NCBI GenBank assembly: GCA_944325895.1
Contig: CALVCA010000004.1
Location: 1 to 64,000, forward strand
From: Candidatus Gastranaerophilales bacterium
GTDB taxonomy: Bacteria; Cyanobacteriota; Vampirovibrionia; Gastranaerophilales; Gastranaerophilaceae
Reading direction: 5' to 3'
DNA: 64,000 nucleotides
Of the stretch, positions 6,760-58,139 are shown piece after piece. The notes under the pieces were generated by a model, which ran no database searches, was not told the origin of the DNA, and saw only the letters and a program-made list of their open reading frames with translations. The translations under genes were made by a program, and so were the position numbers. Every line of letters starts with the position of its first letter. Positions within the stretch are counted from its first letter, which is position 1.

Positions 6760-6849
6760 TTAGAGGAAGTATACCCCCCCCCTACATGTGCTCGCTGTAA
6801 GGGTTTTGGTCACTTCTGCTAAAAATTTTTCCGCTCTGTTTTTCTTCAT
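6760..6849 (-). CDS. Leader small ORF with internal G9 tract (copy A)
   Basis: A 29-codon ORF starting MKKNRAEKFLAEVTKTLTAS and ending TCRGGVYFL. The G9 run (6774-6782) encodes part of Arg-Gly-Gly-Val. The ATG lies exactly 6 nt after a TAAAAT -10 box, so it would be translated from a leaderless mRNA. Loss of one G would extend the frame to 77 codons, through the structured leader; gain of one G would stop it within a few codons. The identical ORF precedes prepilin B. It is not a known family; the role as a leader peptide is inferred from position. GCGGAAAA near its start and TTTTCCGC after its stop could pair. Confidence 0.5.
   Translation of the reverse strand: MKKNRAEKFLAEVTKTLTASTCRGGVYFL
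6774..6782 (-). repeat. Homopolymeric G9 tract (C9 on + strand)
   Basis: Nine consecutive G on the coding strand in a strongly AT-rich genome, flanked TGTA-G9-TATAC. The same tract is in module B, and a G10 run preceded by the same TGTA is in locus C. Such runs are classic sites of slipped-strand length change. Confidence 0.9.
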
Positions 6850-14533: not shown

Positions 14534-14920
14534 ATGAAAAGAATTATGGTAGTCGATGATTCACCAAGCTGGGTAAAGCATCACACTTTTAATATAAAAT
14601 TCATTCTTGGAGAAGATAATTTAACGATATTACCGGCATATTCAGCCAAAGAAGCTGACAGGCTGCTGGCTTTAAAAGAACCGTTTGATATAATTTTTAC
14701 AGATATGCAGATGGAACCTGATTTTTTGCCGTTGAACGCAGGAGAATGGCTTATTAAACAAATTCAATTTTACCCTGAATATAAAAATACAAAAATCGTA
14801 ATAATTTCCGCATCACCAAGAATTGAACAAATTGCCGAAAAATACGGAGTTGACTACATTCCGAAAAGACAATGTCAAACAACCGTTCCTTATGAAAAAA
14901 TTTTAAAAAATAGCGGATAA
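14534..14920 (+). CDS. Stand-alone response-regulator receiver domain
   Basis: A 128-residue CheY-like protein. The acidic pair is in 'IMVVDDSP' (D8, D9), the phospho-acceptor Asp in 'IIFTDMQM' (~57), the conserved Ser in 'IVIISASP', and the conserved Lys in 'YIPKRQC' (~112). All residues needed for phosphorylation are present. There is no output domain, so it probably acts by protein contact. An insertion 'EPDFLPLNAGEW' after the phosphorylation loop is a little longer than in CheY. AGAGG precedes the ATG. No histidine kinase lies in the window. Confidence 0.85.
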   Translation: MKRIMVVDDSPSWVKHHTFNIKFILGEDNLTILPAYSAKEADRLLALKEPFDIIFTDMQMEPDFLPLNAGEWLIKQIQFYPEYKNTKIVIISASPRIEQIAEKYGVDYIPKRQCQTTVPYEKILKNSG

Positions 14921-15071
14921 GATAGTACCCCGTAATTGACTAGTGCCTTTCAGGATGTTTTTGGAAGTTTATTCCACGCTGCTCATCATTTTGGGCGGAA
15001 AAATTATTTTTATAAAGTTACCAGGGCATTATGCCAAAATAACTTATTAAAGAACTTATTCCACACAACAC

Positions 15072-15130
15072 GTCATTCTGAGCAAAGCAAAGAATCTCTT
15101 AATGAGATCCTTCGGCTAAAGCCTCAGGGT
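15072..15130. repeat. REP-like repeat inside the truncated-prepilin leader
   Basis: CGTCATTCTGAGCAAAGC ... GGCTAAAGCCTCAGGGTG, a degenerate copy of the 5490 element. It lies between a conserved upstream segment and the prepilin ATG. At 24520-24547 the corresponding position is occupied by an inverted half copy. Confidence 0.6.
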
Positions 15131-15145
15131 GCTACGTACGTAGGT

Positions 15146-15328
15146 ATGTTTGATAAAAATCGTCGTGCCGCCTTCACGCTAGCTGAGGTTCTTATCACCC
15201 TCGGGATTATCGGGGTCGTTGCCGCTTTGACTATCCCCACACTTATTGCGAATTACAAGAAAAAACAGGCTATCTCCAAATTACAAAAAAACAATTTTAC
15301 GGTTATTCAAAAATGTAAAGATTTGTAA
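15146..15328 (+). pseudogene. Truncated prepilin (N-terminal cassette only)
   Basis: Sixty codons: MFDKNRRAA, then FTLAEVLITLGIIGVVAALT and IPTLIANYKKK, with a stop soon after the assembly helix. A normal prepilin has 150-300 residues, so the soluble domain is missing. Prepilin peptidase would cut before Phe10. The ~100 bp before the ATG match the leader of prepilin C at 24 kb. The frame is open 70 codons upstream without a stop, as at locus C. It may be a relic, a silent donor cassette or a minimal pilin; I cannot tell which. Its end overlaps the upstream elements of the 15408 promoter. Confidence 0.6.
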
Positions 15329-15356
15329 AAATATTTTGAATGAATTTTTAATTTCT

Positions 15357-19660: not shown

Positions 19661-19750
19661 TTAGAGGAAGTATACCCCCCCCCTACATGTGCTCGCTGTA
19701 AGGGTTTTGGTCACTTCTGCTAAAAATTTTTCCGCTCTGTTTTTCTTCAT
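19661..19750 (-). CDS. Leader small ORF with internal G9 tract (copy B)
   Basis: The same 29-codon ORF as at 6760-6849, with G9 at 19675-19683 and ATG 6 nt after the -10 box. Tract length is equal in both copies in this assembly. Conservation of the frame between copies is expected from recent duplication, so it is not independent proof of coding. Confidence 0.5.
   Translation of the reverse strand: MKKNRAEKFLAEVTKTLTASTCRGGVYFL
19675..19683 (-). repeat. Homopolymeric G9 tract, module B
   Basis: C9 on the + strand, within the leader ORF of prepilin B; same flanks as in module A. Confidence 0.9.
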
Positions 19751-22837: not shown

Positions 22838-23755
22838 ATGATGGGTTTAAATGTAAATTCAAAGCACGATTTAGAAGATTTTAAAACATATATTCTTGTT
22901 GAAAAAAACTTTTCCAAGCATACTGCAAAAGCATACTGCTCAGATATCTTAAGCTTTTTAATATGGATGGAAGACATGTCATGCGAAGAAGTTAATTTTT
23001 CAAAAATTAGAGATTATCTACATTTTATACAAAAATTCAGCTACAAAAAAACAACTATTGCCCGAAAAATAGCGTCTTTAAGAACATTTTATAAATTTTT
23101 ATACAGAGAAAAAAAAGTCGACTCAAATCCCGCAATGAATTTGACCTTGCCAAAACGTCCGAAATCTTTACCAAAATTTTTAACACCCGAAGAAGTCGAA
23201 AAAATCCTTAATAATGTTAAAATAGATACTCCGGCAGGATTTAGAAACAGAGCAATACTGGAACTTTTATGGGCAACAGGTATGCGGGTATCAGAACTCA
23301 GCGGTCTAAACTTCGGAGATTTAAACCTTGAAAATAACGAAATACGTGTTTTCGGTAAAGGCTCAAAAGAACGAATTATACTTGTAACAGACAGAGCTAA
23401 AACTTTTTTGGAAAGATATATCCAAACTGCACGATCGCTTGTCGCTAAAGATTATAAGTTAAAAGAACCGGACGAAAATTCACCCGTTTTTATCAACAAT
23501 ACAGGCTACAGACTGCAGACAAAAACCATACGCAATGTCATAAACGATATCGTCAAAAAAATTGAGCTGCCTAAAAAAGTTACTCCGCACGTTTTCCGGC
23601 ACAGCTTTGCAACACATTTGATAGAAAAAGGAGCTGATTTACGTGTTGTTCAAGAACTTTTAGGTCATGCAAGCATATCAAATACCCAAATTTATACCCA
23701 TGTTTCTATGCAGCATATGAAAGAAGTTTATAATGAAGCTCACCCGAGAGCTTAA
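22838..23755 (+). CDS. xerD: Tyrosine recombinase XerD/XerC type
   Basis: Site-specific recombinase that resolves chromosome dimers at dif. The 305 residues have an N-terminal SAM-like core-binding domain (~10-95) and a catalytic domain with Arg in 'ATGMRVSELSGL', Lys in 'GKGSKERIIL', His-x-x-Arg in 'TPHVFRHSFATHLIEKGADLRVVQELLGH', and Tyr in 'TQIYTHVS'. The C-terminal 'LGHASISNTQIYTHVS' favours XerD over phage integrases, and no integrase-associated genes surround it. The start may be either of two adjacent ATGs. The 3' end overlaps the convergent prepilin C gene by 4 bp. Confidence 0.9.
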   Translation: MMGLNVNSKHDLEDFKTYILVEKNFSKHTAKAYCSDILSFLIWMEDMSCEEVNFSKIRDYLHFIQKFSYKKTTIARKIASLRTFYKFLYREKKVDSNPAMNLTLPKRPKSLPKFLTPEEVEKILNNVKIDTPAGFRNRAILELLWATGMRVSELSGLNFGDLNLENNEIRVFGKGSKERIILVTDRAKTFLERYIQTARSLVAKDYKLKEPDENSPVFINNTGYRLQTKTIRNVINDIVKKIELPKKVTPHVFRHSFATHLIEKGADLRVVQELLGHASISNTQIYTHVSMQHMKEVYNEAHPRA

Positions 23756-24504
23756 AACCATGGATAATCATTCGCAATCTGCCAACCGTCTAAATATATC
23801 AAATATCCGCATATCTGAGAATTTTCACCGTTTGAACAGCTTCGAAGATAATTTTCACGGCTGCCCCTGCCATAATTATGAAAGCCAAATTGTTTTGTGT
23901 TTAAATCAAAAGTCATATTAAATACATCTTTCCCTAAAGTATTAGGTTTACTAAATCCGTTTACATCAACTTTAAAAATAATATTTCTATATTCAGTAGA
24001 TACACAGCTCCCATCAGGATTTGTTCCGCCAACACAGCCCGAGGAGCCTATCCCCGTCAAAATTAAAACATTATTAGACAGTAAAATATAATGTCCAGTA
24101 GCCCCGCCAGGAAACTTTGTATTAGTTGAAGGATTATAATATCCGTCGTAATTTATTTGTGAAGGCCAGGTATATCCATAATCTTTTGAAACTTTTACAT
24201 AAGGAATTAAATATTTGCTAACAAATTTTTCAGTTGCTTCCCTTGATGAAAAATTCGGATCGTCCGTCGAAGTGCCGTAAATTCCGCCAACATCCCAAGT
24301 TGAGGTATCACCTTCTTTTACCTGAGCCATTGTCAAGGCTTGAGATAAAATAGAATAGGTTTGTTTTAATTTTGTAACAGTTTGTCGTTTATTATAATTA
24401 CTAATCAATGTCGGAATGGTCATAGCAGCCACAATTCCTATAATCCCTAGGGTGATAAGAACCTCGGCGAGGGTGAATGCGGCACGACGATTGTTGTTAG
24501 ACAT
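23752..24504 (-). CDS. Type IV prepilin-like protein C with G-tract leader
   Basis: 250 residues from ATG 24504: MSNNNRRAA, then FTLAEVLITLGIIGIVAAMT and IPTLISNYNKRQT. Cleavage before Phe10, with Ala at -1 rather than Gly. The soluble part has 'GGIYGTS', 'SKDYGYTWPSQIN' and a Cys-rich C-terminus. The chosen ATG has only a close AGG and no good Shine-Dalgarno. The same frame is open without stop back to 24781, across the REP fragment, the shared leader and up to the G10 tract. This gives 92 open codons upstream. Expression may therefore depend on the leader ORF at 24743-24823. Converges on xerD. Confidence 0.8.
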   Translation of the reverse strand: MSNNNRRAAFTLAEVLITLGIIGIVAAMTIPTLISNYNKRQTVTKLKQTYSILSQALTMAQVKEGDTSTWDVGGIYGTSTDDPNFSSREATEKFVSKYLIPYVKVSKDYGYTWPSQINYDGYYNPSTNTKFPGGATGHYILLSNNVLILTGIGSSGCVGGTNPDGSCVSTEYRNIIFKVDVNGFSKPNTLGKDVFNMTFDLNTKQFGFHNYGRGSRENYLRSCSNGENSQICGYLIYLDGWQIANDYPWF

Positions 24505-24519
24505 ACCTACGTGCGTAGC

Positions 24520-24547
24520 ACCTTCGGCTAAAGCCTCAGGATGACGG
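24520..24547. repeat. REP-like half copy in the prepilin C leader
   Basis: ACCTTCGGCTAAAGCCTCAGGATGACG on the + strand: half of the 5490-type element, inverted relative to the copy in the truncated-prepilin leader. It sits immediately before the start codon region, without breaking the open frame. Confidence 0.55.
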
Positions 24548-24742
24548 GTTGTGTGGAATAAGTTCGTTAATAAGTTATTTTGACATAATGCCATAGCAAC
24601 TTTATTAAAAATGCCGCTTTTTATCTTCTTATTACTTAAACTATAGTTCATTATATTAAAATTATAGTTTAATTTTAATACATAGTCAATCGGGGTAAAA
24701 AACAATCTTAAAAACGCTTTTAAACACGTTATTCCTGAAAAA

Positions 24743-24823
24743 TCAATTCCGACTCTGCTTTGAGCAAGTCGCCCCCCCCCCTACAATCAGTTTTTGATAT
24801 ATTTTTGCCCCTTCTTTTAACAT
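24743..24823 (-). CDS. Leader small ORF with G10 tract before prepilin C
   Basis: A 26-codon ORF, MLKEGAKIYQKLIVGGGATC then SKQSRN. The ATG is preceded by GGAGGG at good spacing. The G10 tract (24772-24781) encodes the three glycines plus the first base of the next codon. In the present sequence it stops at 24743. With nine G it would enter the frame of prepilin C, which is open from the tract to its start, yielding a continuous ORF. The ORF resembles the A/B leader ORFs only in the GTA/GGG region and position. Confidence 0.5.
   Translation of the reverse strand: MLKEGAKIYQKLIVGGGATCSKQSRN
24772..24781 (-). repeat. Homopolymeric G10 tract, prepilin C leader
   Basis: C10 on the + strand, flanked (minus strand) by TGTA on the 5' side as in modules A and B. 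Confidence 0.9.
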
Positions 24824-24874
24824 TTTCAACCCTCCATTTGTATCATAACATATTTATTACTTTTAAGCAAGATT

Positions 24875-57128: not shown

Positions 57129-58139
57129 CTAATCCCCAATGCAAAACACCAGATTATTAGCGTAGCGACCTCCTTCGCCCCATTCAGTATTGTTTGGTGC
57201 GAAGATACGATAGAAGGCGTTGTATCTGCTAACCTCCTCTCCTGACCATATAGAGAAAGTGGAGCCTGAACTAGCGGTGAGTCCTAACTCCGCTACTTTG
57301 TCATAATCCAGAGTCAAACCAGATTCGTATCCGCTAATTCCTGATGTATTGTATACATAGTTAGCAATATCATTTAATTGTGCTTGTGTTGGCATCTTAC
57401 TTACTCCGCCACAAGACTTTACAGCTCCGCCCCAGTAATCATCGTCACCGTCTCTACAATTTTTTATTCCTAATTGAGATTGTCTTGCAATACATTCATT
57501 ATGTGTCAATGGAGTTGTAGTAATGGGAGCAGTAAAACATGTTCCATTTATTTCAAAAGCACAGTTGCTTCCGCCAAGAGAGAGAACATTAATACTTCTC
57601 AAATCTTTTTGTTGAGTGTTAGGAGTTTTGAATCCTGTGGTATCATAAAGAATAGCTAAACAGGAAGTGCCGTTGAATTGATTAGTAAAAGGCTGTTCTT
57701 TACACTCAGGGTTATATGCAATAAGTCCTGTAGTACCGTTAGCGAATTGCACACCGATAGTTTCGGTATCCCAATCCTCTTGACCAAAGTTTTTAGCATT
57801 TTTAATTTTAGACATATCGACTTCTTCATTTTCAGCGCCCCAAAAGACTTTATCTTCAAAACAAGATAGTATATCGTCATTAGCACAAACCTTAGTAATC
57901 TTAAAATATTTACCTAAAGCGGAAACGAAATCAGCGGTATTGGAATAGCCTGCTAAAACCTGTTGAGTGTTCATGGTTTTTAAAGCTTCTTCTAACTTTC
58001 TTTCAAAAACAGATGCGGAAGTATTCCAGGCTTTGTTCTGGTAGTTAGCGACAAGAGTAGGGATAGTCAAAGCAGCAACGATGCCGATAATGCCGAGAGT
58101 AATCAAGACCTCAGCTAAGGTAAAACCGAATTTTTTCAT
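57129..58139 (-). CDS. Type IV prepilin-like protein D
   Basis: 336 residues: MKKFG, then FTLAEVLITLGIIGIVAALT and IPTLVANYQNK. Prepilin peptidase should cut after Gly5, leaving Phe1 and Glu5. The long soluble domain has ten or more Cys and a C-terminal 'YRIFAPNNTEWGEGGRYANNLVFCIGD'. GAGGGAAA precedes the ATG. Unlike A, B and C there is no G tract or leader ORF. Single gene on its own strand, divergent from the XRE regulator. No assembly ATPase, PilC or prepilin peptidase lies in the window. Confidence 0.85.
   Translation of the reverse strand: MKKFGFTLAEVLITLGIIGIVAALTIPTLVANYQNKAWNTSASVFERKLEEALKTMNTQQVLAGYSNTADFVSALGKYFKITKVCANDDILSCFEDKVFWGAENEEVDMSKIKNAKNFGQEDWDTETIGVQFANGTTGLIAYNPECKEQPFTNQFNGTSCLAILYDTTGFKTPNTQQKDLRSINVLSLGGSNCAFEINGTCFTAPITTTPLTHNECIARQSQLGIKNCRDGDDDYWGGAVKSCGGVSKMPTQAQLNDIANYVYNTSGISGYESGLTLDYDKVAELGLTASSGSTFSIWSGEEVSRYNAFYRIFAPNNTEWGEGGRYANNLVFCIGD

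Follow-up and report, generated by a model that had tools for sequence, protein, structure and literature searches.

Helicobacter pylori has outer-membrane proteins that carry CT dinucleotide repeats in their signal sequence. Poly-G/C tracts are well-established drivers of phase variation in Neisseria and Campylobacter, and the pilus protein PilC is one of the proteins affected (PMC5953494, PMC4965091). In Neisseria, pilC1/pilC2 and other genes undergo translational phase variation at such tracts, with up to 54 putative loci per genome (PMC5953494). The AT-rich Campylobacter jejuni has approximately 20–30 G runs, most of which consist of 9 or 10 bases (PMC4965091, PMC6321876), and in one data set 52% of the Campylobacter G runs had length 9 and 30% length 10 (PMC6321876). 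Multi-locus simple-repeat phase variation has been described mostly in pathogens, with a possible database bias (2025 review, PMC11868660).

Here, we analyzed a run of ten G upstream of a type IV prepilin gene in Candidatus Gastranaerophilales. Our analysis suggested that this run is probably a translational phase-variation (contingency) tract inside a cleavable prepilin leader, that the gene is one of approximately 30 of this kind, and that they switch by slippage with most copies silent. The locus resembles the H. pylori outer-membrane proteins in that the repeat lies in the removed leader part of a surface protein family; however, H. pylori uses CT repeats, Sec signal peptides and fewer genes, whereas Gastranaerophilales has G runs in prepilin leaders. 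It resembles pilC1/pilC2 in having a G/C homopolymer in a pilus-related reading frame, with one length in three being ON. In contrast to the Neisseria loci, which have diverse functions and only a few members in any one family, nearly all Gastranaerophilales loci are prepilins, and the run lies in the leader predicted to be cleaved. The C. jejuni runs are found mostly in surface-modifying genes and have an approximately neutral ON share, whereas the Gastranaerophilales runs are predominantly OFF. A large pilin repertoire with few expressed copies is also known from Neisseria pilE/pilS, in which gene conversion into one expressed gene is used, whereas in Gastranaerophilales every copy comes with a start, a leader and a run of its own (in part from PMC5953494).

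The locus lies on the minus strand of the window, that is, the whole 64-kb stretch of DNA analyzed. A possible −35 element TTGCTT (24,865–24,870) is located 17 nt 5′ of a possible −10 element TATGAT with TG in front (24,842–24,847), both recognized by resemblance to the consensus, and the Shine-Dalgarno sequence GGAGGG (24,830–24,835) is 6 nt upstream of the ATG of a leader ORF (MLKEGAKIYQKLIVGGGATCSKQSRN*; 24,743–24,823). As assembled, with the G10 run at 24,772–24,781, this ORF reads as OFF and stops after 26 codons. With 11 G the ORF from the leader ATG has 31 codons and with 9 G it has 356, and the predicted ON length is 9 (or 12). In the prepilin frame, a TAG at 24,783–24,781, which includes the first G of the run, is followed by 92 open codons up to an internal ATG (24,502–24,504; MSNNNRRAAF; MSNNNRRAAFTLAEV...), which has ACGCACGTAGGT in front and no proper Shine-Dalgarno sequence; beyond this ATG the frame runs on into MSNNNRRAAFTLAEVLITLGIIG.... 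The sequence-only reading had claimed the G10 tract in a 26-codon ORF behind GGAGGG, the early stop, the TAG at the tract with the open codons that follow it, the joining of leader ATG and prepilin by nine G, and the lack of a proper ribosome site at the prepilin's own ATG, and all of these held with their exact numbers when the sequence was read again.

The extended leader (24,478–24,780) is open in the prepilin frame from the run to the pilin core and has the palindromic-repeat segment HTTRHPEALAEGATHVG inside; it is followed by the mature type IV pilin part (FTLAEVLITLGIIG..., 241 aa; 23,755–24,477) and a stop codon at 23,752–23,754. The window prepilin matched Pfam N_methyl (PF07963) and NCBIfam TIGR02532, both over cut-off, and the prepilin N-terminal motif (FTLAE plus hydrophobic helix) is present. 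Moreover, its AlphaFold model (pLDDT 86) has a long N-terminal helix as in pilins, followed by a beta-rich domain. A fold search with the mature window pilin against the PDB yielded no meaningful match or clear relative. Prepilins without a run have ordinary leaders in which few residues precede FTLAE, as in the comparison prepilin at 57,132–58,139 on the minus strand of the window, with its short leader (MKKFGFTLAEV). In-frame palindromic repeats coding RHSERSEES... or RHPEALAEGATHVG were observed at 24,505–24,560 and in the extended leaders of many family members; the encoded peptide sits where the leader would be cleaved off.

The tract exceeded chance: the window contains 7 overlapping G8 matches (three runs), compared with 0.09 expected from window shuffles, and chance runs were rejected. 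There is no G run of exactly 7 or 8 in the window. Two other runs, both G9, lie at 6,774–6,782 and 19,675–19,683 in a different leader (MKKNRAEKFLAEVTKTL...), and their flanks are identical to each other. Leaders of this type with G9/G10 runs were also found at G000 C10:27351, L091 and L128; the runs lie upstream of prepilins that have their own Shine-Dalgarno sequence and ATG, and one phase gives an ORF of approximately 70–100 codons that ends short of the prepilin.

Within the 1.69-Mb source genome, 37 G/C runs of length 8–11 were found. The same architecture was repeated at 30 of them: a Shine-Dalgarno sequence, an ATG, a short leader (4–18 codons), the run, and a frame that, in exactly one of the three phases, continues without a stop into a type IV prepilin; two further runs were cut off by contig ends. 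At these 30 loci the ON phase has approximately 200–500 codons and the OFF products approximately 8–34 codons. The run is coded as G in class A leaders (...GGG-RLAQS...) and as C in class B leaders (MKTIEKLADKIVAPPP...), and the leader with Shine-Dalgarno sequence and ATG recurs in nearly all family members. The genome has 66 N_methyl matches and one prepilin peptidase match (PF01478), the latter over cut-off. Larger pilin-like proteins of at least 500 codons also have a run (L001, G000 C1:11388; L117, G010 C4:112905); their cores are divergent (FTLAEMMVV, FTLGELSIV), and the L001 copy is ON at G10.

Among relatives, 230 distinct runs were classified in nine genomes, and 179 of these were linked to a prepilin core. 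The genomes checked for linkage to prepilins came from two genera, the window's own and one other; two more genera were scored for run richness only. Tract lengths ranged from 8 to 14, mostly 9–12, and at most of the unlinked loci that have such leaders the contig stops before a pilin could be reached. Enrichment in G9 runs was seen in each of the 18 relatives from the window's family, whereas 11 genomes sampled across six further families of the order had few such runs or lacked them. Prepilin counts were high in most of the run-rich genomes, but a genome from another family of the order (G022) has 88 prepilin-motif matches and no G9 run, indicating that prepilin expansion alone does not bring runs. 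A scan of named genomes with a relative's leader returned 74 loci, in matches titled Candidatus Gastranaerophilales or uncultured bacterium; the same scan with the window's own 92-residue leader gave zero matches, as did viral contigs scanned for the run context.

As assembled, 23 of the 179 linked runs (13%) were ON (p = 3e-10 against one third), and the lengths in the source genome differed between class A (one of 9, six of 10 and two of 11) and class B (one of 8, 18 of 9 and one of 10; Fisher p = 1.8e-5), p-values that overstate the effect because paralogues are not independent. The commonest length was OFF in every major leader class, whether the ON length was longer or shorter. Runs were mostly 9 with ON at 10 in class B of the source genome and the main classes of the genus (89 of 107 runs in the main class were G9), mostly 10 with ON at 9 in class A and one class of another genus, mostly 11 with ON at 10 in MxANTH leaders, and mostly 12 with ON at 11 in a different class of the other genus. 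The ON offsets of classes A and B are opposite. A single length preference cannot account for both, and no single frameshift direction rescues both.

Lengths also differed between orthologous and near-identical loci. At the orthologue of the window site, in the interval between the MFS gene and xerC, two relatives had G10 in the ON phase, one had G10 in the OFF phase and three had G9 in the OFF phase; the run was absent from the stretch read in further relatives. An invariant G10, looked for because it would have spoken against the switch, is thus not what the relatives have. The window locus (G10) and its paralogue L054 (G11) have flanks that are 91% identical, and paralogues in genome G016, with flanks 82–89% alike, pair G11 ON with G12 OFF and G9 ON with G10 OFF. 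Orthologous C9, C8 and C10 runs were seen in L097 (G010), L265 (G008) and L274 (G012), with flanks 93–96% identical; these belong to a short ORF (MSDKPILWKSLL...) without prepilin core linkage. L237 (G008) and L037 (G000 C3:99551) were ON at 9 though the class is normally ON at 10; the leader of L237 carries an extra A, and the frame was moved there and not by the run.

Between the run and the pilin core, the 179 linked loci comprise 15,946 codons with 0 stops in the ON phase, compared with 978 expected from shuffling; the other two frames of the same set have 1,253 and 1,651 stops. Stops in the intervening frame of relatives, another sign against the switch named by the sequence-only reading, were looked for and are missing from the ON phase, although their absence is partly by construction, because linked loci were picked by one frame reaching the core. 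The weight of this evidence is in the small number of failures among loci with sufficient flank. The run-to-core distance over the 179 loci was 7–195 codons. In only 34 of them does this interval offer a further in-frame start accompanied by an SD-like sequence, and in 31 it lacks start codons altogether. Leader indels between relatives were multiples of three in 54% of cases and substitutions were even over the three codon positions, a pattern that fits a leader that is read through, whose sequence is hardly important, and which would then be removed by prepilin peptidase. In two copies with an interrupted run (CCCCTCCCC, CCCTCCCCC) the frames are still open. Two copies with an eroded run have decayed; one of them, a class B copy on the plus strand of the window (14,914–15,329, at 14.9–15.3 kb), retains a leader remnant (GCGGATAAGATAGTACCCCG), the eroded run and a truncated pilin.

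The orientation of the runs was also compared with replication. The G-run strand was the G-rich (leading) strand, as given by third-position skew, in 17 of 20 run-bearing stretches (L148–L167; G000 and relatives), independent of whether the gene codes the run as G or C, and the runs in the three exceptions belong to another leader type. When neighbouring runs were compared in two relatives, those preceded by C lay on the same strand in 52 of 53 cases. Runs preceded by A, which came mostly from MxANTH leaders where read, lay on the other strand from their nearest C-preceded neighbour in 14 of 15 cases. A contig-strand bias as an artefact was rejected, since the bias tracks the replication strand. 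Orientation with respect to replication seems to be constant for each leader type, with the MxANTH type on the opposite strand. Possible causes are selection against inverted repeats in one replichore and an influence of fork direction on slippage.

The on/off switch geometry that the sequence-only reading had proposed is supported, with both ON and OFF lengths found within leader classes, and the reading of the window locus as a putative switch is likewise supported. According to the proposed mechanism, ribosomes would start at the leader ATG. At the ON length (9 at the window locus), translation would traverse the extended leader and enter the prepilin, all residues ahead of FTLAE would be cut off by prepilin peptidase, and the product would be assembled into pili; at other lengths, translation at the window locus would halt at 26–31 codons. 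Slipped-strand mispairing at replication would add or remove one base of the run within a population, and because each run would slip by one base on its own, the prepilin genes would switch independently. Cells in the population would then differ in which few pilins of a large repertoire they display, with the majority of copies silent at any moment, and the benefit may be diversity of an antigen, phage receptor or adhesin. As in known contingency loci, a slip-prone repeat is present in the 5′ coding region, one length class gives the full product and the rest truncated ones, and ON and OFF lengths occur at homologous loci, the comparison here being between species and between paralogues. In addition, Campylobacter runs are also mostly 9 and 10, which suggests that a two-length switch is a natural state. 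As counterpoints, the run lengths are rather uniform, beyond what free switching suggests, and just 23 of the 179 linked runs are ON.

This uniformity could instead mean that a fixed run acts as a programmed slippery site, at which ribosome frameshifting or RNA polymerase slippage would give a low, set level of prepilin from OFF DNA. Lengths that are uniform per class and nearly always exactly one base from the ON phase would agree with such a site, as would the slipperiness of homopolymers and the maintenance of open leader frames. However, class A G10 (ON at 9) and class B C9 (ON at 10) need opposite shifts within one genome, where programmed frameshifting has one constant direction at a fixed site, and true ON lengths occur alongside in the same classes. 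Moreover, RNA structure z-scores (0.0, −0.3 and +2.0 at three loci, approximately −2.3 at two) lacked consistency, and some of the stretches were not solely downstream. The OFF bias in classes with differing ON length, together with the near-identical loci of unequal length, favours DNA slippage over programmed frameshifting. Directional frameshifting as the sole mechanism was rejected because of the opposite shift directions and the coexisting ON lengths, and we consider a slippery site unlikely.

The OFF copies might also, like Neisseria pilS, serve as silent donor cassettes for recombination into a single expressed gene or a few of them, with the run only marking or stimulating recombination. 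Past recombination is evident in near-identical leaders and downstream segments joined to different pilin bodies, and in leaders that change sharply at the run but share the part beyond it; furthermore, ON loci are few. Cassettes would nevertheless not need the Shine-Dalgarno sequence, ATG and open run-to-pilin frame that nearly all copies have, and silent copies lacking a translation start, as in pilE/pilS, were not what we found; pilS-type cassettes were rejected because nearly every copy has a leader with Shine-Dalgarno sequence and ATG, and this explanation is very improbable. It is hardly credible that the pattern arises from miscalled run lengths or from pseudogenes. The contig names of the named relatives, which are metagenome-assembled genomes, suggest short-read assemblers, and homopolymer miscalls are possible, but the same pattern appeared under three different assemblers, as judged by contig names, and a uniform miscall could not lengthen the run in one class and shorten it in another of the same genome; assembly miscall was rejected on these two grounds. 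Dead genes, for their part, would have acquired stops somewhere in the 15,946 codons.

Slippage at the run thus remains the preferred reading. No paper treating Gastranaerophilales and phase variation together was found among open-access papers, to which the search was confined, and the matches to related searches appeared not to describe such phase variation. The distinctive features of this system are that nearly the whole set of tracts falls on one gene family, that the tracts lie in a prepilin leader that is often extended and predicted to be cleaved, that they occur throughout the sampled family, and that they are biased to OFF. The chances seem to us evenly balanced that these runs constitute a family-wide phasome for one gene family, in which at least approximately 30 prepilins per small genome each have their own G/C run in a cleaved leader and are OFF by default, with few pilins made per cell, and in which the orientation fixed for each leader type may set the slippage rate or the preferred length.

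A lineage of non-photosynthetic gut Cyanobacteria possesses a tract set of Neisseria-like size devoted to type IV pilins. Automatic annotation is expected to call many such genes truncated or to misplace their starts. For the organisms themselves, the reading predicts strong cell-to-cell surface diversity among gut Gastranaerophilales.
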